A DNA stretch of 64,000 bases, taken from the NCBI RefSeq assembly GCF_000272005.1, contig NZ_AKKU01000026.1:310001-374000 (forward strand), read 5' to 3'. Source of the DNA: Alishewanella agri BL06. GTDB lineage: Bacteria > Pseudomonadota > Gammaproteobacteria > Enterobacterales > Alteromonadaceae. Each line of letters starts with the position of its first letter. Positions within the stretch are counted from its first letter, which is position 1. The notes under the pieces were generated by a model. It was not told the DNA's origin and did no database searches. It worked only from the letters and a program-made list of their open reading frames with translations. Of the stretch, positions 21,681-30,109 are shown piece by piece. Both the position numbers and the translations under genes were made by a program.

Positions 21681-23585
21681 ATGGGTAGAATTATTGGTAT
21701 TGACTTAGGTACAACCAACTCTTGTGTGGCTATTTTGGATGGTGACAAGCCAAAAGTGCTGGAAAATGCCGAAGGTACACGGACCACGCCTTCCATTATT
21801 GCTTACACCGAAGATGGCGAAGTGTTAGTGGGTCAGCCAGCCAAGCGTCAGGCGGTGACTAACCCAAAAAATACCTTATTCGCTATCAAGCGCTTAATTG
21901 GTCGTCGTTTTGAAGACGAAGAAGTGCAGCGTGATATCAAAATCATGCCATTCCAAATTGTTAAAGCCGATAATGGTGATGCCTGGGTAGAAGTTAAAGG
22001 CAAAAAATTAGCCGCGCCGCAAATTTCAGCGGAAGTGCTGAAAAAGATGAAGAAAACGGCTGAGGATTATCTGGGCGAGCCAGTAACTGCGGCGGTTATC
22101 ACCGTACCGGCATACTTTAACGATGCTCAGCGTCAGGCGACCAAAGACGCCGGCCGGATTGCCGGTTTAGATGTAAAACGTATTATCAACGAGCCAACTG
22201 CTGCGGCACTGGCTTACGGTATGGATAAGAAGAAAGGCGATACCAAGGTTGCGGTATATGACCTGGGTGGTGGTACTTTCGATATTTCTATTATCGAAAT
22301 TGATGATGTTGATGGCGAGCAAACCTTTGAAGTGTTGGCTACCAATGGTGATACGCACTTAGGTGGTGAAGACTTCGATAACCGCGTGATCAACTATCTG
22401 GTTGAAGAATTTAAGAAAGAGCAAGGTATTGACCTGCGTAACGATCCGCTGGCGATGCAGCGTTTAAAAGAAGCCGGTGAAAAAGCCAAAATTGAACTGT
22501 CTTCTGCGTCACAAACGGAAGTGAACCTGCCTTATATCACGGCTGATGCCACAGGTCCGAAACACCTGAACATCAAATTAACCCGTGCTAAGCTGGAATC
22601 ACTGGTCGACGATTTAGTGCAGCGTACTTTAGAGCCGCTGAAAAAAGCGCTGGCTGATGCTGACTTAAGCGTAAGTGACATCAACGAGATTATTTTGGTT
22701 GGTGGTCAGACGCGGATGCCAAAAGTACAAGAAGCGGTAACGGCTTTCTTTGGTAAAGAACCACGTAAAGACGTGAACCCGGATGAAGCGGTAGCTGTGG
22801 GTGCGGCTATTCAGGGTGCGGTATTATCTGGTGATGTGAAAGACGTTTTACTGTTAGACGTTACGCCTCTGTCACTGGGTATCGAAACCATGGGTAGCGT
22901 GATGACCACGCTGATTGAGAAGAACACCACTATCCCGACTAAGAAGTCTCAGGTGTTCTCAACTGCTGATGATAACCAGTCTGCAGTAACTATTCATGTG
23001 CTGCAGGGTGAGCGTAAACGCGCCTCTGACAATAAGTCATTAGGTCAGTTTAACTTAGAAGGTATTCGTCCGGGTCGCCGCGGCGAGCCACAAATCGAAG
23101 TAACCTTCGATCTGGATGCGGATGGTATTCTGCATGTATCGGCCAAAGACAAAGATACTGGCAAAGAGCAGAAGATCACTATCAAAGCCTCTTCTGGCTT
23201 AAGCGAAGAAGAAATCCAGAAAATGGTGCGTGACGCTGAAGCGCATGCTGAAGAAGATAAAAAGTTCGAAGAGCTGGTGCAGGCGCGTAACCAGGCCGAT
23301 GCCATGGTTCACGCTACCCGTAAGCAAATCGAAGAAGTCGGTTCAGCGTTAGCGGCTAACGACAAAGAAGCTATCGAGACCGCTATTGGCGAGCTGGAAA
23401 AAGCCATCAAGGGTAATGATAAGTCAGAGATCGAAGCCAAAACTCAGGCGTTGATCCAGGCTTCTCAGAAACTGATGGAAGCCCAGCAGGCGAAAGGCCA
23501 GGCCGGTGACGCTGGCCAGCAAGCCGGTGGCGCTGACGACGTAGTCGATGCGGAATTCGAAGAAGTTAAAGACGACAAAAAGTAA
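21681..23585 (+). CDS. dnaK: Chaperone protein DnaK (Hsp70)
   Basis: 634 residues from the ATG at 21681 preceded by GGAGAG; the extra 12 codons upstream are not conserved. The three Hsp70 signatures are visible: [29 protein letters not shown] and [13 protein letters not shown]. The substrate-binding domain starts after [13 protein letters not shown], and the tail ends in an acidic [14 protein letters not shown]. It is an ATP-dependent protein-folding chaperone that works with DnaJ and GrpE. Followed by dnaJ. Confidence 0.98.
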
Positions 23586-23598
23586 TTAACGCTAAAAC

Positions 23599-23620
23599 AG
23601 GCTGCAGCTTTGGCTGCAGC
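23599..23620 (+). other. Hairpin in the dnaK-dnaJ gap
   Basis: GGCTGCA pairs with TGCAGCC in the 62-bp intergenic region, without a following T-run. It is probably a processing or attenuating stem that lowers dnaJ expression relative to dnaK. Confidence 0.4.
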
Positions 23621-23647
23621 CGTTAACTGAGAAATAAGCACAGATCT

Positions 23648-24787
23648 ATGTCCAAGCGTGACTATTATGAAGTACTAGGTGTCGCTAAAGGCGCCGATGA
23701 TAAAGACATCAAAAAGGCTTATAAACGCCTCGCCATGAAATTTCACCCGGATCGTACCCAGGGTGATAAAGATATGGAAGAGAAGTTTAAAGAAGTACAG
23801 GAAGCCTATGAAGTTTTGTCTGACGAGCAGAAGCGGGCAGCCTACGACCGTTACGGCCATGCCGGAGTAGATCCGAATCGTGGTGCCGGTGGTTTTGGTG
23901 GCGCCGGTGGTGCCGACTTTGGCGATATCTTTGGCGATGTGTTCGGCGATATCTTTGGTGGTGGCCGCCGCGGTGGTGGTTCGCGCTCGCAACGAGGCGC
24001 TGACCTGCGCTACAACCTGGAGTTGTCGCTGGAAGAAGCGGTTAAAGGTAAATCGGTCGATATTAAAGTACCGACCATGGTCAGCTGTGACAGTTGTGAT
24101 GGTTCAGGCGCCAAAAAAGGCACTTCAGCCAAGAGCTGTCCAACCTGTAACGGTGCCGGTCAGGTTACGATGCGTCAGGGCTTTTTTGCGGTACAGCAAA
24201 CCTGTCCTACCTGTTCTGGACGTGGCAAAATTATTCCGGATCCCTGCAGCAAGTGTCATGGTGAAGGTCGCGTAGAAAAGACCAAAACGCTGTCGGTTAA
24301 GATCCCTGCCGGTGTTGATACTGGGGATCGCATTCGCTTATCTGGCGAAGGTGAAGCCGGCATGCATGGTGCACCTGCGGGTGATCTCTATGTCCAGGTG
24401 TCAGTAAAAGCGCACCCGATCTTCCAACGTGATGGCAATAATCTGTACTGTGAAGTGCCGATGAGCTTCGCTACCGCCGCCTTAGGTGGCGAGATTGATG
24501 TGCCAACGCTGGATGGCCGCGTTAAGCTGAAGATCCCGGCAGAAACGCAAACTGACAAGATGTTCCGCTTGCGTGGCAAGGGCGTACAGTCGGTGCGTGG
24601 CGGCGGTGTCGGTGACCTGGTGTGTAAGGTGGTGATTGAAACCCCGGTTAAGCTATCAGAGCGGCAAAAAGAGCTGCTGCGCCAACTGGATGAAAGTATG
24701 ACCGGCGAAGGCGAAGCCACACACCGGCCGAAGTCAAAAGGCTTTTTCGATGGTGTGAAAAAATTCTTTGACGATCTAACCAGCTAG
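23648..24787 (+). CDS. dnaJ: Chaperone protein DnaJ (Hsp40)
   Basis: 379 residues. The N-terminal J domain (5-70) has the HPD motif (KFHPDRTQ). A Gly/Phe-rich linker with [15 protein letters not shown] follows, then a zinc domain with four repeats ([32 protein letters not shown]) and the C-terminal substrate-binding domain. It stimulates the DnaK ATPase and delivers substrates. It ends in a strong terminator. Confidence 0.98.
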
Positions 24788-24815
24788 TTTGACGGTTTAA
24801 ACAATGAAATCACAG

Positions 24816-24843
24816 AAACCACCCGTTTTGGGTGGTTTTTTTA
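24816..24843 (+). terminator. Rho-independent terminator after dnaJ
   Basis: AACCACCC and GGGTGGTT pair around a short GTTTT loop and run into seven T residues. It begins about 30 bp after the dnaJ stop. Confidence 0.9.
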
Positions 24844-24895
24844 TGCTTAAAAGGTACACTTAAGCCACAGTGTTATTGTTTCCAACGGACTGCTT

Positions 24896-25699
24896 ATGTT
24901 AAAGAAAATTCTGGTTACTGCGGTATGCGCGCTGTTGCTTGGTTCTTGTGCCGAGTCTCCTACCGGCCGCAAGCAGGTGATGCTATTTGATAACAAGCAA
25001 TTGAATACTATGGGCGCCCAGACTTTCGAGCAAATGAAGGCGGAGCAAAAGATTAGTAGCGATCCGGCGACTAACCGTTATGTGCAGTGTGTCGCCAATG
25101 CTTTATTAAAAGTGACACCAGATGAATACCAGCAATACAACTGGGAAATCGTAGTATTTGATAGCGAGCAGGTAAATGCCTTTGCCTTACCTGGTGGCAA
25201 GATGGGCGTTTATACCGGCCTGATAAAAATCGCAGAAACGCCTGCCCAGCTGGCAGCTGTAGTAGGCCATGAAATTGGTCACGTTATGGCCGGGCATAGC
25301 AATGAACGCTTATCAACCAATCAGTTTTTACAGCTTGCCTTAGCTCTTGGTGACGCCGGCACTAAAGCTTATGGTGTGCGTTATCAGCAAGAGTTAATGG
25401 CGGCGCTGGGGCTGGGGGCTCAGGTTGGCGTAGCCTTACCTTTTAGCCGCACCCATGAAACCGAAGCCGATGTAATAGGTCTGGAATTAATGGCCAAAGC
25501 CGGGTTTAATCCTGAAGATTCGGTTGCCTTATGGCGCAATATGGCAGCGGCAGGCAGTGGCGGTGTGCCACAGTTTTTATCCAGCCACCCGGTGCCAGAT
25601 ACCCGCATTCGCACTTTACAGCAAAAAATGCCAGAAGCTGCTACACTTTATCAGCAGCGAAGACAGCAAGGAAATTTGCCAGCTTGCCGCAAGCCTTGA
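24896..25699 (+). CDS. M48 family zinc metalloprotease, lipoprotein
   Basis: 267 residues. A lipoprotein signal ends at Cys18 (LLGSC), so it is probably anchored in the periplasm-facing membrane. The zinc motif HEIGH lies at residues 125-129, in VVGHEIGHVMAGHSNER, and the third ligand region is TEADVIGLELMAKAGFNPE. Compact single-domain M48 lipoproteins such as LoiP/YggG and YcaL degrade misfolded envelope proteins. It resembles these, without the TPR tail of BepA. Which paralogue it is cannot be decided by eye. Confidence 0.88.
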   Translation: MLKKILVTAVCALLLGSCAESPTGRKQVMLFDNKQLNTMGAQTFEQMKAEQKISSDPATNRYVQCVANALLKVTPDEYQQYNWEIVVFDSEQVNAFALPGGKMGVYTGLIKIAETPAQLAAVVGHEIGHVMAGHSNERLSTNQFLQLALALGDAGTKAYGVRYQQELMAALGLGAQVGVALPFSRTHETEADVIGLELMAKAGFNPEDSVALWRNMAAAGSGGVPQFLSSHPVPDTRIRTLQQKMPEAATLYQQRRQQGNLPACRKP

Positions 25700-25729
25700 T
25701 GTCAGTATTTTTTACAGTTTAAATGGTAA

Positions 25730-25749
25730 AGCAGCTTCTTGAAGCTGCT
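25730..25749 (+). terminator. Stem-loop after the M48 protease gene
   Basis: AGCAGCTTC and GAAGCTGCT form a perfect 9-bp stem with a two-base gap, 31 bp after the stop. No T-run follows, so termination is uncertain. It separates the protease gene from the next cassette. Confidence 0.4.
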
Positions 25750-25840
25750 AGCTGCAAGTGAATCAAAGGCTTGCATATGATGGTGTGATACTTGCATCGT
25801 CAACAGTATTATCGATATTGGTTAACCTACGGAAGTTGCT

Positions 25841-26446
25841 ATGCAAGGACATGACCAGAAAGAACAAGATACCGCCAAACTAAATCGGCGTAAGTTTTTA
25901 ACCCGGGCCGGTGCTGGCTTGGTTATAGCGTCATTACCGGCGAAGTCTGTGTGGGCTGGTTCCAACGGTTTAGCGGGATCAATTATAGCGTCAGGACATG
26001 GCTCTGATTTCGCAGGTGGAAAACCGCTGGTGCTAAAATCATCCGGATTTTTCGGTAATTCGGGTGGTGGTTCTAAAGCCAGTTCTGGTTTTGGTATTAC
26101 GTCAAATTACTTCTGTAATATTTTCCCCGGCAATCCGCTACCTACGATTGCACCAGAAGATCTTCAAAAGGAAGATAAGTCTCTTGAAACGTTGACGATG
26201 AGAGATATTCTGCAGACCAACAACCTGAAGTTCCATGGTGATGGTAAGGTCAATCGCTTTATGGCAGCGACCTATATGAACGCAATTTTTCATGGTCAGT
26301 TTGGTATTTATTTCCCGGTAATTGGAAGTTCTCCAACGTTTCAAACCCCCCAAGATCTTGCAGAATACTTGTATCTTAACGGCCTAAACAATGGAGAGTT
26401 ATTTGGTTTAGAATTACAGGAGCTGTTTGCAGCCTATGCCGTCTAG
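25841..26446 (+). CDS. Tat-signal protein of unknown function; candidate substrate of the HprK-related cassette
   Basis: 201 residues. A twin-arginine signal is clear: NRRKFLT with Arg16-Arg17, a hydrophobic stretch, and a probable cleavage after VWA (Ala39). The segment after it (about 40-85) is rich in Gly and Ser, including KSSGFFGNSGGGSKASSG. The rest (about 85-201) is a soluble domain I do not recognise, with one cysteine (NYFCNIF) and a region MRDILQTNNLKFHGDGKVNRFMAATYMNAIF. It is the first gene of a four-gene group with a PqqD-like protein, a kinase and a nucleotidyltransferase. A role as exported target of those enzymes is inferred from order and the Tat signal. Confidence 0.7.
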   Translation: MQGHDQKEQDTAKLNRRKFLTRAGAGLVIASLPAKSVWAGSNGLAGSIIASGHGSDFAGGKPLVLKSSGFFGNSGGGSKASSGFGITSNYFCNIFPGNPLPTIAPEDLQKEDKSLETLTMRDILQTNNLKFHGDGKVNRFMAATYMNAIFHGQFGIYFPVIGSSPTFQTPQDLAEYLYLNGLNNGELFGLELQELFAAYAV

Positions 26447-26462
26447 ATGGAACCTGGATTAA

Positions 26463-26663
26463 GTGTTATTGAAGCAGGAAGTCCTTGTTAAAAGTTTTAA
26501 GGACGGTTCAGGTATTGTGCTTTTTGACACTAACACCGGTGAAACTATCGGATTTTCGAAGTCTTTTGAAGAGTTGGTCGCTTTGGAGTTAGATCGTCAT
26601 CTTGAAAAAGAGCTGAAACCCTATGAGTACAAGCTATTTAAAAAGATGCTAACTCAGCAATGA
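26463..26663 (+). CDS. PqqD-like small protein of the HPr-rel-A type cassette
   Basis: 66 residues from a GTG start; a TAA codon lies immediately upstream in frame, so the protein cannot begin earlier. The pattern IVLFDTNTGETIGFSKSFEELVALEL resembles the winged-helix PqqD fold (a hydrophobic strand, a turn with NTGE, a strand, then an acidic helix). PqqD-like proteins bind leader peptides for modifying enzymes. It lies 16 bp after the Tat-signal gene and 22 bp before the kinase. The ribosome site is weak, so it may be translated by coupling. It is shorter than typical family members, hence moderate confidence. Confidence 0.6.
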   Translation: MLLKQEVLVKSFKDGSGIVLFDTNTGETIGFSKSFEELVALELDRHLEKELKPYEYKLFKKMLTQQ

Positions 26664-26685
26664 ACGCCACTTTGACTCGAATCTG

Positions 26686-27561
26686 ATGACAGAAAATTTT
26701 CGTCTGCGACTCCCGCCTTTCAACTTTTCTATTCAATCTGATATCGGATTGGTTAGCGAGAATATCCATAAAATTTACGCTCCAGCGCTGGAAATATTTC
26801 GCCCCGTTTATCCTGATTATTGTCTAAGTGTAAAGCAAACTGCCGGGCTACGTAGGTATTGGAAACCTCAAGCCCGATTCCTTGCTGATCAACAGGAGCC
26901 TTTTCAACCTTTAACTTTGCAGCAAGGTTACGCAATGTTGGAGTGGGGCATGAATTGGTGTATCGCCAGTCACGAAATGCAATATGTCATTTTACACTCT
27001 GCTGTTTTAGCGAAAAATGATAAAGCGATAGTCTTTCCAGCACCACCAGGCTCTGGGAAAAGTACCTTAACAGCCTACCTGGCATTCAATGGCTGGCGTT
27101 TGTTATCCGATGAAATGGCGCTGATTTTACCTTACAGTAAGAGGGTTCAACCTTTTGTACGACCAATTTGCCTTAAGAATCAATCCATAAATTTGGCAAA
27201 AAAATGGTTTCCGGACGGTGTTTTCTCAACTATTGCATCGGACACTCATAAAGGCGATGTGATTCACCTTTCTCCGCCACTTAACAGTTGGCTGGGTGCT
27301 GAACAACAGGCTGAAATTGTTGGAATAGTTTTCCCGCAGTACGTCCCACAAGTTGAATTAGATATTTATTCTCTTAATCAAACTCAGGCATTTATGCAAC
27401 TTGCACAAAACGCATTTAACTTCGGCGTTATCGGTCGTGAGGGTTTTGAGACTTTAACAACTATTATTGAGCAAGTGCCGGTTTTCGATATTCAGTATAA
27501 TGATCTGGTTGCGGTAGAGGATTTTTTAACAAACGAGGTGTTGTCTCGTGTCGCTTCGTGA
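26686..27561 (+). CDS. HprK-related kinase A family protein
   Basis: 291 residues. A P-loop at residues 117-127 (FPAPPGSGKSTL, with Gly122, Lys125 and Ser126) is followed by GWRLLSDEMALIL. This is the same pattern as the HPr kinase/phosphorylase fold and the HprK-related kinase A group. The upstream ILHSAVLAKNDKAIV strand is also typical. It lacks the N-terminal domain of true HprK, and no HPr or PTS gene is near, so the target is not HPr by context. In paeninodin-type lasso clusters related kinases phosphorylate a peptide serine; a similar role on the neighbouring Tat-signal protein is an inference. Confidence 0.8.
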   Translation: MTENFRLRLPPFNFSIQSDIGLVSENIHKIYAPALEIFRPVYPDYCLSVKQTAGLRRYWKPQARFLADQQEPFQPLTLQQGYAMLEWGMNWCIASHEMQYVILHSAVLAKNDKAIVFPAPPGSGKSTLTAYLAFNGWRLLSDEMALILPYSKRVQPFVRPICLKNQSINLAKKWFPDGVFSTIASDTHKGDVIHLSPPLNSWLGAEQQAEIVGIVFPQYVPQVELDIYSLNQTQAFMQLAQNAFNFGVIGREGFETLTTIIEQVPVFDIQYNDLVAVEDFLTNEVLSRVAS

Positions 27562-28654
27562 GCTAATAGTGCGAATTTTCGCTCGGCCAGTGCTTGCTTT
27601 ATCGATTAATGAGCCGCAGTGGGTAGAGATAATTCGTATCTTGCGTCAACAGCAACAACTGGCCCGTTATGCTTACCTATTTCGGCAAGCAGATGTTTTT
27701 ATGCAGCTGCCTCAGTACGCTCGCCATCATTTGCGCAACGCTGAAATTATTGCTGATAAACAATTACGTCAAGTTAGTTCTGAAGCTATTGAACTTACGA
27801 AGTTACTGGCGCCATTGAATGTCAGGCCAGTATTTCTCAAAGGCGCTGCCTATGCATTAATGCGGGAACTGCCGGCCGGAATCGGACGTACCTTTAGCGA
27901 CCTGGATATTCTGGTTCCCAAAGAACAAATTACAGCAGTAGAGCAACGGCTGTCGGTATTTGGCTTTTTACCTGAGCCGGTGAGTGCTTATGATCAGCAT
28001 TATTACCGTAAATGGACGCATGAGATCCCACCGTTACGGCATCATAGCCGCGGCACTATTCTGGATATTCATCATAATTTGATCCCCCCCGTTTCGGGCC
28101 GGGCACCGGATATTCGCCGTTTCTGGCAGCATCTTGATCTGACGGACGATGGCTATCAGGTACTGAGCTTACCGGCTATGACCTTACATAGTCTGATCCA
28201 TCTATTTTTTAATGAGGACTTCAAAAAGGGCTTTCGGGATCTGACCGATCTGCATTTGTTATTTGCTGGTTTTAGCGAGCAAGATTGGGAGCAATTGCTG
28301 CAACTGGCCGAGCAGACCGGTTTTATGTTTGAATTGATGCTGGCTTGCCGCTATAGCCATTCACTGCTAACTACACCCATTCCTGCTTGGGTGATGCAAC
28401 AAACTGAGCAGTACCAGCCGTCAAAACTGCGCCTACAGCTACTGGATTTTATCTTCCTGCGATTGTTAAGTCCGCAGCACCCGTTATTAAACACTTATCT
28501 GGATCAGCTGGCTGCATTGTTAGCACTGATCCGTGGTCACTGGCTGAAGATGCCGCCGCAGATCCTGCTTGGGCACCTGAGTGTAAAAGCCTTTTGTGCA
28601 ATCCGAGACGCGTTATTTGGCAAACACCAATTTAGCCCGAAACGACCGGGGTAG
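27548..28654 (+). CDS. Nucleotidyltransferase family protein (NTP_transf_5 type)
   Basis: 368 residues from a GTG start that overlaps the kinase gene by 14 bp, so translation is coupled. The nucleotidyltransferase core is visible as VFLKGAAYALMREL followed by GRTFSDLDILVPK, the metal-binding Asp pair being in DLD; a second acidic strand is ILDIHHNL. Pfam PF14907-like proteins are common in lasso-peptide and HprK-related clusters, where some modify phosphorylated peptides. Here it is the last gene of the cassette. Its 3' end overlaps the convergent antiporter gene by 23 bp. Confidence 0.82.
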   Translation: MSLRELIVRIFARPVLALSINEPQWVEIIRILRQQQQLARYAYLFRQADVFMQLPQYARHHLRNAEIIADKQLRQVSSEAIELTKLLAPLNVRPVFLKGAAYALMRELPAGIGRTFSDLDILVPKEQITAVEQRLSVFGFLPEPVSAYDQHYYRKWTHEIPPLRHHSRGTILDIHHNLIPPVSGRAPDIRRFWQHLDLTDDGYQVLSLPAMTLHSLIHLFFNEDFKKGFRDLTDLHLLFAGFSEQDWEQLLQLAEQTGFMFELMLACRYSHSLLTTPIPAWVMQQTEQYQPSKLRLQLLDFIFLRLLSPQHPLLNTYLDQLAALLALIRGHWLKMPPQILLGHLSVKAFCAIRDALFGKHQFSPKRPG

Positions 28655-29957
28655 TTTGTCGGCGCAGTAAAACCACAGTTAAAGCGATCATCAATAGGAT
28701 CAAACAATAATAGTTGTATGTGATGACCTGCCACGGCGATAAGCCAAAACTTGCCCCGAGCAGTAAGGCCTGAGCACCATAGGGTACTAATCCCTGACTG
28801 ATACAGGCAAAGATATCCAGCAAACTGGCGCTGCGCCGTGGGCTGATTTGATGTTGCTGTGCCAGGTTGCGGCTAACATCTCCGGTTAATACTATAGCCA
28901 CCGTATTATTGGCAATACAGAGGTTGCTGATAAAGGCCAAGGCGGCAATGGCCAGCTGCTGGGCTTTATTGCCGGCAAGTCGCAGCTTAGCGGTAATAGA
29001 TTGGATTTTATTAGAAATCCACTGTAAACCACCTTGTTGTTTAATAAATTCACTGAGGCTACTTACCAGCATCGCCAACAGAAAGATCTCCTGCACATTA
29101 GCAAAACCGGTCGCAATATCCTTACCCAGGTTGCTGATTGCATAATCGGCAAGCAGACTACCCTGCAGCGCAGCCAGGGCGATACCGAGCAGCAATACGA
29201 CAAACACATTGAGACCTAAGACTGCCAGTACCAGAATGGCGGCATAGGGCAAAATACCCGTCCAGTTATAGGCTTCGGTGCTAATTTGCGGGGCATCTGA
29301 AGTCAGTAGGCTATAGGCCAGAATGGTCAGTAAGGCCGCAGGCAACGCAATTTTGATATTTTCTTTAAATTTATCAGCCATATTGGCGCCCTGGGTGCGG
29401 GTAGCAGCAATAGTGGTATCTGAGATAATCGATAAGTTATCTCCGAACATAGCGCCACTAAGCAGTACCCCAGCGACAATCGCAGGGTTCAGTTCCGCCT
29501 GATTGGCGATGCCCACGGCTATCGGCGCCAGGGCGCCGATGGTCCCCATCGAGGTACCCATAGCAGTAGAAACCAGAGCGGCAATAATAAATAAACCCGG
29601 TAAAATAAAAGCAGGTGGAATAATACTTAAACCGGCGTTGACTACGGCATCGACACCACCACTGGCGGTCGCCACGCTGGCGAAGGCGCCGGCTAATAAG
29701 TAAATCAGACACATGGTAATAATATTGCTATTACCGGCGCCTTTAATGATCACGTCGATAGATTGCGTCAGAGGGGCGCGATGCAGCCACACAGCCAGTA
29801 TCAATGCCGGCAGAATGGCGACATGACCAGGCAGTTGGTAGAACGCGTACTCAACATTCTGGCTTTGAAAATACAGGCCACTGCCTAAAAACAGCAGCAC
29901 AAAACACAGTAATGGCAGTAACGAGCGCTTCGCGCCGGATGTAATGATAGTGTCCAC
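28632..29957 (-). CDS. NhaC-family Na+/H+ antiporter
   Basis: 441 residues from a GTG at 29957 with GAGG nine bases upstream; the frame is open to 30014, but the extra residues are charged and not family-like. About ten to twelve membrane segments are seen. The motif VSTAMGTSMGTIGALAPIAVGIA and the GDNLSIISDTTIAATRTQG stretch are characteristic of NhaC/ion-transporter superfamily antiporters. It would export sodium (or exchange an acid anion) in the inner membrane. Substrate is inferred from family only. Confidence 0.85.
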   Translation of the reverse strand: MDTIITSGAKRSLLPLLCFVLLFLGSGLYFQSQNVEYAFYQLPGHVAILPALILAVWLHRAPLTQSIDVIIKGAGNSNIITMCLIYLLAGAFASVATASGGVDAVVNAGLSIIPPAFILPGLFIIAALVSTAMGTSMGTIGALAPIAVGIANQAELNPAIVAGVLLSGAMFGDNLSIISDTTIAATRTQGANMADKFKENIKIALPAALLTILAYSLLTSDAPQISTEAYNWTGILPYAAILVLAVLGLNVFVVLLLGIALAALQGSLLADYAISNLGKDIATGFANVQEIFLLAMLVSSLSEFIKQQGGLQWISNKIQSITAKLRLAGNKAQQLAIAALAFISNLCIANNTVAIVLTGDVSRNLAQQHQISPRRSASLLDIFACISQGLVPYGAQALLLGASFGLSPWQVITYNYYCLILLMIALTVVLLRRQTTPVVSG

Positions 29958-30109
29958 TAGAGCAACCTCAGCAAAATGGCAGCGCAATATATAGATGTCC
30001 AGACGTCTTGTCAATCTGGCGTGAATTCAGGCATGTTTAAGTTAGGATTTAGTTAGCTTGCCCCTGTGTTGTTTAACATAGGGTATTTCGACTAAAAAAC
30101 ATACTGTTA

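Follow-up and report, generated by a model that had tools for sequence, protein, structure and literature searches.

The window analysed here, a stretch of 64,000 nucleotides (nt) from Alishewanella agri BL06 (contig NZ_AKKU01000026.1, positions 310,001 to 374,000 of the forward strand), lies on contig C26 of a 3.49 Mb genome and carries a cassette of four packed plus-strand genes, encoding in order a protein with a twin-arginine translocation (Tat) signal, a PqqD-like protein, an HprK-related kinase A and a nucleotidyltransferase. Comparison with related cassettes suggests that the Tat protein is the substrate of the kinase, that serines directly behind its signal are the likely target, and that the operon is read from a promoter of the type found upstream of PEP-CTERM genes. 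The features of the unit, in window coordinates, are as follows.

25700..25716, + strand: putative PrsR-type enhancer box TGTCAGTATTTTTTACA, 17 nt, ending in TTTACA, directly after the stop codon of an M48 metallopeptidase gene (motif search)
25781..25796, + strand: putative sigma-54 -24/-12 element TGGTGTGATACTTGCA, 64 nt past the box and 44 nt before the start codon of the Tat gene (ATG at 25841) (motif search)
25841..26446, + strand: Tat-signal protein, 201 aa, probable substrate and product (open reading frame, ORF; association with the kinase)
25841..25960, + strand: n-region and Tat signal, R16-R17-K-F and hydrophobic stretch to ...SVWA (by eye)
25979..26005, + strand: serine motif S47-IIA-S51-GHG-S55 (S-x3-S-x3-S), predicted as the probable modification site (alignment conservation)
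26006..26860, + strand: segment about 50% alike between the sister species L038 and L040, covering the Tat protein body, the PqqD-like gene and the first ~56 kinase codons (DNA comparison)
26463..26663, + strand: PqqD-like protein of the RiPP recognition element (RRE) type (RiPP, ribosomally synthesized and post-translationally modified peptide), 66 aa, GTG start, short and divergent (ORF, profile)
26686..27561, + strand: HprK-related kinase A, 291 aa (TIGR04352 match)
27548..28654, + strand: PF14907 nucleotidyltransferase, 368 aa (Pfam match)

The genes are separated by 16 and 22 bp, and the kinase and nucleotidyltransferase genes overlap by 14 bp, which bears out the close packing noted in a preliminary description of this DNA made from the sequence alone. 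That description had also taken the genes to be more AT-rich than their neighbours; lower G+C is clear over the first three genes only (41-42% in 26000-27499 vs 47-52% in 22500-25999), the fourth standing at 46-48%. Its assignment of the third gene to HprK-related kinase A was confirmed by TIGR04352 (HprK_rel_A), which the protein matched with 310.3 bits against a cut-off of 200 (E 9.7e-93), and the fourth protein matched PF14907 (NTP_transf_5) with 144 bits (cut-off 31.2), the sole such match in the genome. The kinase P-loop (G122-x-G124-K125-S126-T127) with H104, D142, E143, R159, K164, T187, K189 and G190, and the nucleotidyltransferase residues G113-R114...D118-x-D120 and D173, are kept at 95-100% over 117 kinases and nucleotidyltransferases. 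The nucleotidyltransferase was found at 117 of 118 loci, the sequence of the remaining one (L144) ending early. The third profile proposed for the cassette, TIGR04353, matched 30 of the 36 proteins in our PqqD-like alignment (the window ORF and 35 of 70 counterpart ORFs, misread ORFs being excluded) and failed to match the window ORF itself. A profile built without the window row nevertheless recovered the window ORF among the six-frame ORFs of the window (E 4.9e-4), and judged by sequence this ORF looks like a degenerate member of its positional family.

The Tat gene proved to be a nearly constant neighbour of the kinase; its absence beside related cassettes would have spoken against the preliminary description. 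Among 98 genomes, this one included, 42 carried a TIGR04352 kinase over the cut-off, and at all 42 loci (the window and 41 relatives fetched with flanks of up to 6 kb) an ORF of 169-275 aa with a Tat signal lay just upstream of the kinase cassette. A profile of the Tat family, searched over the same genomes, matched all 42 kinase-bearing ones vs 3 of the 56 others, the latter being partial or weak matches in G073, G086 and G097 (Fisher P 1.5e-24; relatedness is ignored in this and all other Fisher and shuffle figures). In a scan of named genomes, covering the best 80 of 271 confirmed relatives and consisting mostly of Gammaproteobacteria in the GTDB sense, including former Betaproteobacteria, the Tat gene was present at 79 of 80 loci, upstream at 76 and downstream at three (two genes each in L090 and L107, one in L110); none was seen at L121, which lies at a contig edge. 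In a class-wide sample of 369 genomes, the profile matched 36 of 41 genomes with a kinase over the cut-off vs 17 of 328 others (Fisher P 1.6e-31), all 36 matches lying within about 2 kb of the kinase. In four of the five misses, the PqqD gene has a divergent match to the Tat profile next to it, giving 40 of 41 in total; the fifth lies at the edge of a contig. The TIGR04352 cut-off was passed by 61 of 398 genomes in a phylum sample, and a Tat ORF was found at 24 of the 29 loci examined, with flanks of at most 1.5 kb. The Tat ORFs were chosen by twin-arginine pattern and hydrophobicity, so that their arginine count holds by construction, and the choice at named loci also scored the serine and PGYW motifs described below, which slightly favours the motif counts; the whole-genome profile searches are independent of this choice, though their profile is not. 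These data support well, by association, the Tat protein as the probable substrate of the cassette.

In L090 (5668-7104) and L107 (2532-4040), the downstream Tat genes form a tandem pair behind a single kinase cassette, and the upstream neighbour of the L090 cassette is, as we read it by eye, presumably HslV. Plasmid copies were seen in Vibrio alfacsensis (L186, NZ_CP140104.1), beside 2-aminoethylphosphonate genes, and in Sphingomonas parapaucimobilis (L187, NZ_CP155749.1), near glmU/glmS; both public records use HPr-rel-A names for the kinase and PqqD-like genes and label the Tat gene as a hypothetical protein. One genome, G009, gave two kinase matches of identical score, one at a contig edge and the other near a contig end (C4 and C5), probably an assembly overlap.

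Neither Pfam nor NCBIfam has a model for the Tat family. The window protein matched no Pfam family and no NCBIfam family above cut-off, and scanning of 60 members gave one Pfam match (DUF6764, E 0.007) and, in NCBIfam, only generic Tat-signal models (five) and one unrelated model. Read by eye, the window signal runs RRKFL...SVWA with an A-x-A-like end, although the NCBIfam Tat-signal models do not pass; the genome encodes TatC (PF00902, 237.6 bits). The precursor of 201 aa ends in AYAV and would leave a mature part of about 160 residues.

Directly behind the signal stands the serine motif, C-x-x-(P)-S-[GA]-x-x-S-G-N-x-S in many relatives and S-IIA-S-GHG-S in the window. In an alignment of the first 75 residues of 117 non-duplicate Tat proteins, its three serines are kept in 115, 115 and 97 proteins, and the first two rank next in conservation to the ORF-defining arginine pair. 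The full S-x3-S-x3-S occurs in 94 of 118 Tat proteins vs 9.5 expected from shuffled segments, and spacing 4 is the commonest of serine-pair spacings 1-12 (253 pairs, followed by 148 at spacing 8); the single S-x3-S is less telling (117 of 117 vs 66 in shuffles). The 118 proteins comprise the window, 41 relatives and 76 named loci, without the downstream Tat genes of L090, L107 and L110. L085 duplicates L056 (Alishewanella tabrizica); it was kept in the 118-protein triad, segment-identity and catalytic-residue counts and dropped from the 117-protein alignment and the neighbourhood and promoter counts, and the L056/L085 pair was dropped from the set of 92 pairs used below. The alignment behind the Tat profile (the window and 59 of 76 named proteins) and a second one (42 of 76) were hand-picked, and their invariant columns overstate conservation because several atypical rows were excluded.

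The serine motif is followed by a (C)-x-G-x-(S/T)-P-G-Y-W-K element, of which the window has a divergent form without these cysteines, and by an H-x-x-A-A-x-L-N-A helix. In the predicted structure of L115, the body is confidently modelled as a folded domain, and serines one and two share a short helix, modelled with middling confidence, just ahead of it. At the other extreme, the precursor of L167, whose kinase scores 366.9 bits, has only 74 aa and ends in a tail of about 12 residues (...AAAGSACISCNASLI); hardly anything comes after the triad (GSACISCNASLI), the motif is nearly the entire mature peptide, and the PqqD gene starts about 43 bp after the precursor gene. In L213, the Tat signal is followed by a tail of ~20 residues. 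Large proteins without an adjacent kinase (L179-L184) likewise carry the body domain at their C-terminus, and in them the match to the profile begins only past the serine motif. These C-x-P-G-Y-W-K domains end probably Sec-secreted proteins, one with DUF11 repeats, and no Pfam model covers the domain in the two proteins scanned.

Close comparison of cassettes separates a constant from a variable part. The flanking DNA of the close sister species L038 and L040 is mostly 95-100% identical, with a few tracts of 79-91%. Up to 25990 they are almost identical; the drop falls within 25991-26020, at the end of the serine motif, and identity remains close to 50% as far as about 26850, inside the kinase gene, before recovering to 91-100%. 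The proteins follow this pattern, with identities of 98% for signal and motif, 31% for the body, 48% for the N-terminal part of the kinase, 100% for the kinase core and 99% for the nucleotidyltransferase. Over 92 cassette pairs from 36 loci with kinase cores at least 75% alike, the body is the least conserved of these five segments in 76 pairs, the kinase N-terminal part in 11 and the nucleotidyltransferase in five, while signal and motif have the highest mean identity (89%). Purifying selection acts on every segment in close pairs, the ratio of nonsynonymous to synonymous substitution (dN/dS) being 0.05-0.13 in the body (seven pairs from one group of six loci) and dN about 0 in signal and motif. 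In our reading, a chemistry module that stays constant (signal, serines, kinase core and nucleotidyltransferase) is joined to an apparently exchangeable recognition or cargo module (body, PqqD-like protein and kinase N-terminal part); the latter three may change together through interaction, though they are also neighbours in the DNA. The preliminary description had expected modification of a folded exported protein rather than a RiPP peptide, and this contrast was not supported: the conserved feature is the short serine motif, the body varies more than any other segment (76 of 92 pairs) and looks block-replaced between L038 and L040, and L167 and L213 have tails of only ~12 and ~20 residues. 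Because the motif is conserved, the body variable and L167 nearly motif alone, the motif serines rather than the folded body are the likely target.

In the class of promoter described for proteobacterial PEP-CTERM genes in PMC1569441, a sigma-54 motif lies 62.8 ± 10.6 nt past a 17-nt motif ending in TTTACA and is followed by the gene, and the occurrence of PrsK, PrsR and PrsT is stated there to match that of the motif. With the box defined from that description, the composite of box and spaced sigma-54 element was found once in the whole genome, upstream of the cassette, and in 0 of 100 shuffles of the window. A search for TTTACA with a spaced -24/-12 element gave exact pairs in 63 of 114 upstream regions vs 2.7% of random windows, a background that is too high, as the windows were drawn from the same loci and include true promoters, and vs 2 of 114 reverse strands. 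Ahead of TTTACA, eleven bases that the search did not use read [TC]GTC[AG][GA]-N5, with G, T and C in 62, 63 and 59 of the 63 regions. With at least 11 of its 12 fixed positions matched, the box precedes 89 of 114 loci vs 9 on the reverse strand. Distances from box to sigma-54 element peak at 60-69 nt without preset preference, 89 pairs at 30-100 nt having a mean of 68 and a standard deviation of 14.9, with 12 further pairs at other distances up to 200 nt; an earlier mean of 64.2 ± 10.3 was biased, spacers near 63 nt having been preferred where several sites fitted. Box and sigma-54 element together occur at all 27 loci of the genus and at 54 of 87 others with one mismatch allowed (27 and 31 with none), and on 0 of 114 reverse strands. 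By these motif matches, the cassette operon carries the PrsR/sigma-54-type promoter of PEP-CTERM genes.

The genome holds the corresponding machinery: PrsR (TIGR02915, 691.7 bits; cut-off 502.6), PrsK (TIGR02916, 537.7 bits; cut-off 300) and an exosortase (PF09721, 196.9 bits). PrsR and PrsK are encoded beside a trypsin-like protease at about 136-140 kb of contig C1, and the exosortase lies with exopolysaccharide genes at 174-180 kb. We infer that PrsR acts at the cassette promoter. Of the ten 17-nt boxes in the genome, one belongs to this operon, two precede proteins matching TIGR02595 and PF07589 (for example ...SIPEPASIALLGLGLLGLAGTRRFMKK), and a third stands before a gene whose product has a similar tail but passes neither model; the other six look unrelated or could not be placed. 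Outside the genus, at least one gene of the XrtA system (PrsR, PrsK, PrsT, exosortase-associated acyltransferase, XrtA chain-length determinant or export protein) lies within about 4.6 kb of 45 of 94 cassettes, and a trypsin-like protease with a signal-like start lies near 30 of 94 (L033, L036, L039, L041, L042 and others); neighbours were clustered by single linkage and named by one representative each, with some G+C-rich loci misread by the ORF choice. The window Tat protein itself matches no PEP-CTERM model and has no PEP-CTERM tail, its C-terminus being ...LELQELFAAYAV. In an Aquincola strain, PMC9850573 describes RpoN-dependent transcription of a PEP-CTERM gene and its role in floc formation.

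The limits of the unit can be drawn from genomes of the genus that lack it. Two genes flank the cassette and are kept at these empty sites.

24896..25699, + strand: M48 metallopeptidase, outside the unit (Pfam; empty-site comparison)
28632..30014, - strand: convergent Na+/H+ antiporter-family protein, outside the unit (Pfam; empty-site comparison)

The cassette is present in 27 of 31 genus genomes, and the kinase is absent from G006, G015, G023 and G025. At their sites (L159, L158, L157 and L160), the M48 and antiporter matches lie 81, 93, 87 and 101 bp apart and no match to a cassette gene was found. The M48 gene is directly upstream in all 26 further genus loci fetched, and a converging ORF follows in the 26, of antiporter length except one cut by a contig end. 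Because the flanks nearly abut at the empty sites, the unit, as delimited by this comparison, is the promoter and four genes. Within the unit in this genus there is no transporter, cyclase, dedicated peptidase or immunity gene, in agreement with the earlier statement that lasso cyclase and peptidase are missing. On both sides of the cassette, tracts at 24172-24622 (dnaJ) and 28994-29744 (antiporter gene) are 96-100% identical to L040 and 78-91% to L038, and are probable recombination tracts.

Taken together, we propose that the four genes form one co-regulated unit that tags a Tat-exported protein of the PEP-CTERM regulon on its N-terminal serines, a reading to which we give a probability of roughly 55%. 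PrsK-PrsR and sigma-54, the drivers of PEP-CTERM surface proteins in this group, would turn on the operon; the Tat protein would be synthesised in the cytosol and kept close to the kinase by the PqqD-like protein; the kinase would phosphorylate at least one serine of S-x3-S-x3-S directly behind the signal; and the PF14907 enzyme would then place a second group, a sugar or a nucleotide, on the phosphoserine. Because tagging needs cytosolic ATP and nucleoside triphosphates, the finished protein would be exported by Tat and not by Sec, and, once the signal is cleaved, the tagged serines would stand at the N-terminal end of an extracytoplasmic protein that is produced together with PEP-CTERM proteins and exopolysaccharide. 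We infer phosphorylation and the second transfer from the enzyme families, and likewise their order, the part of the PqqD-like protein and the surface function from the arrangement just described.

Several observations weigh against this proposal. No Tat partner was found at five of the 29 phylum loci (L192, L194, L205, L206 and L212; flanks of at most 1.5 kb), the full triad is absent from 24 of 118 Tat proteins, and an alphaproteobacterial Tat partner lacks it. Since the triad is incomplete in these, it is not universal for HprK-related kinase A systems, and other acceptors must, by the sequences, exist. For the window PqqD-like ORF, neither NCBIfam nor Pfam gave a match at E <= 1, and block replacement was seen in one of four very close pairs, L038/L040 only. 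As to the promoter, even with one mismatch allowed, no such pair was found at 33 of the 87 cassettes from other genera, the box alone is not rare (ten in the genome vs five for the reversed pattern), only two of the ten precede PEP-CTERM-model proteins, and the cassette lies far from the XrtA locus in this genus.

A bolder form of the proposal would make the system an N-terminal counterpart of PEP-CTERM sorting, in which a phospho-sugar or phospho-nucleotide tag, set on serine in the cytosol and delivered by Tat, would tie a variable extracellular protein into the exopolysaccharide matrix produced under the same XrtA/PrsKR-controlled programme, with the Tat signal as a RiPP-type leader and the body as exchangeable cargo; this we hold only tentatively and consider rather improbable. 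Somewhat more doubtful still is that the product is a short peptide, the serine motif being a RiPP core and the body a carrier removed after export by an extracytoplasmic protease. The ~12- and ~20-residue tails of L167 and L213, the short Tat peptides adjoining weaker HprK-like kinases and the trypsin-like protease found close to 30 of the 94 cassettes from other genera would suit such a product, but the body is under purifying selection (dN/dS 0.05-0.13), that of L115 is confidently predicted as a folded domain, and the protease homologue of this genome adjoins prsK, not the cassette. The short peptides in question, 11 of 57-87 aa, were seen in L161, L162, L163 (three in tandem), L164, L165, L166 and L175; all 11 have Gly-Ser soon after the signal, an HprK-like kinase below the TIGR04352 cut-off adjoins at five of the seven loci and a PqqD gene at three, and they may represent a second, more RiPP-like set of Tat-exported precursors.

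Tat is the usual export route for proteins loaded with cofactors beforehand, and kinase and nucleotidyltransferase families pair in the manner of kinase/adenylyltransferase pairs, so the two enzymes might make a nucleotide-type cofactor that is joined to the serine motif of a redox or binding protein in the cytosol; a mature tail of ~12 residues is too small for a cofactor-binding fold, however, and the body, where a cofactor would bind, is the most variable part, and we regard this explanation as unlikely. We give still less credence to phosphorylation as an export check, by which a kinase mark behind the signal would govern whether the precursor is held or released from Tat: the position of the motif and the strong constraint on signal and motif (89% mean identity, dN about 0 in close pairs) agree with it, but it leaves the nucleotidyltransferase, present at 117 of 118 loci, without a role, and we know of no regulation of Tat by such phosphorylation. 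Least probable in our view is a role of the bodies as weapons or antigens, in competition between strains or in evading phages, with the tag incidental. Although the bodies differ strongly and look block-replaced in one pair, the close pairs tested gave no sign of positive selection, PADLOC matched none of the four proteins, no kinase relative was found in viral contigs, the unit holds no further gene, and its promoter is of the PEP-CTERM type.

Our literature search found no paper naming HprK-related kinase A or its PqqD partner, and no description of the Tat partner turned up. In the literature searched, the two thus carry systematic names without a known substrate, to which a concrete candidate substrate family can now be added, together with a three-serine acceptor candidate, a minimal natural substrate accessible to peptide synthesis (L167, whose tail has about a dozen residues), and PrsK-PrsR with sigma-54 as the predicted regulator. 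If correct, the proposal would tie kinase-type tagging of an exported protein to the exosortase and exopolysaccharide programme of flocs and biofilms, a question open to test in cultured environmental strains, for example of Alishewanella or Massilia.

The closest tested chemistry, by analogy, is the tailoring of the lasso peptides paeninodin and pseudomycoidin, for which PMC9266682 describes kinases (PadeK/PsmK) that phosphorylate the C-terminal serine of the precursor, a nucleotidyltransferase homologue (PsmN) linked to its glycosylation, and B1 proteins that take part in tailoring. Common to both would be a kinase and a nucleotidyltransferase homologue acting on a serine of a ribosomal precursor, here predicted from the genes. 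Set against that paper's description, H104, K125, D142 and E143 (or the less constant D186) of the window would fit its His-Lys-Asp-Asp motif. B1 proteins are of the RRE type, and the best solved relative of our PqqD-like profile is the B1 protein TfuB1 (E 0.01). Unlike a lasso pathway, the unit has no lasso cyclase or leader peptidase, its serines are N-terminal rather than C-terminal, and its precursor has a Tat signal and usually a large body. With PEP-CTERM/XrtA systems under PrsK-PrsR it shares the two-part promoter, and the genome has PrsK, PrsR and an exosortase; it differs in a Tat protein without a PEP-CTERM tail, a Tat instead of a Sec signal and a proposed tag at the N-terminus. A RiPP precursor of leader and short core does not describe the window protein, with its mature part of ~160 residues, and does describe L167 and L213; the system as a whole appears closer to a RiPP pathway, with the Tat signal as leader and a usually large cargo. 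The HPr-rel-A cassette of NCBIfam (TIGR04352 with TIGR04353) is alike in its kinase over the cut-off, with a PqqD-like gene before and a nucleotidyltransferase gene after it, although the window PqqD-like ORF falls short of its model. To judge from the kinase and PqqD names, the cassette is already known to the NCBIfam curators, whose notes may say more; these names do not cover the Tat substrate family, the serine motif and the PrsR/sigma-54 promoter.

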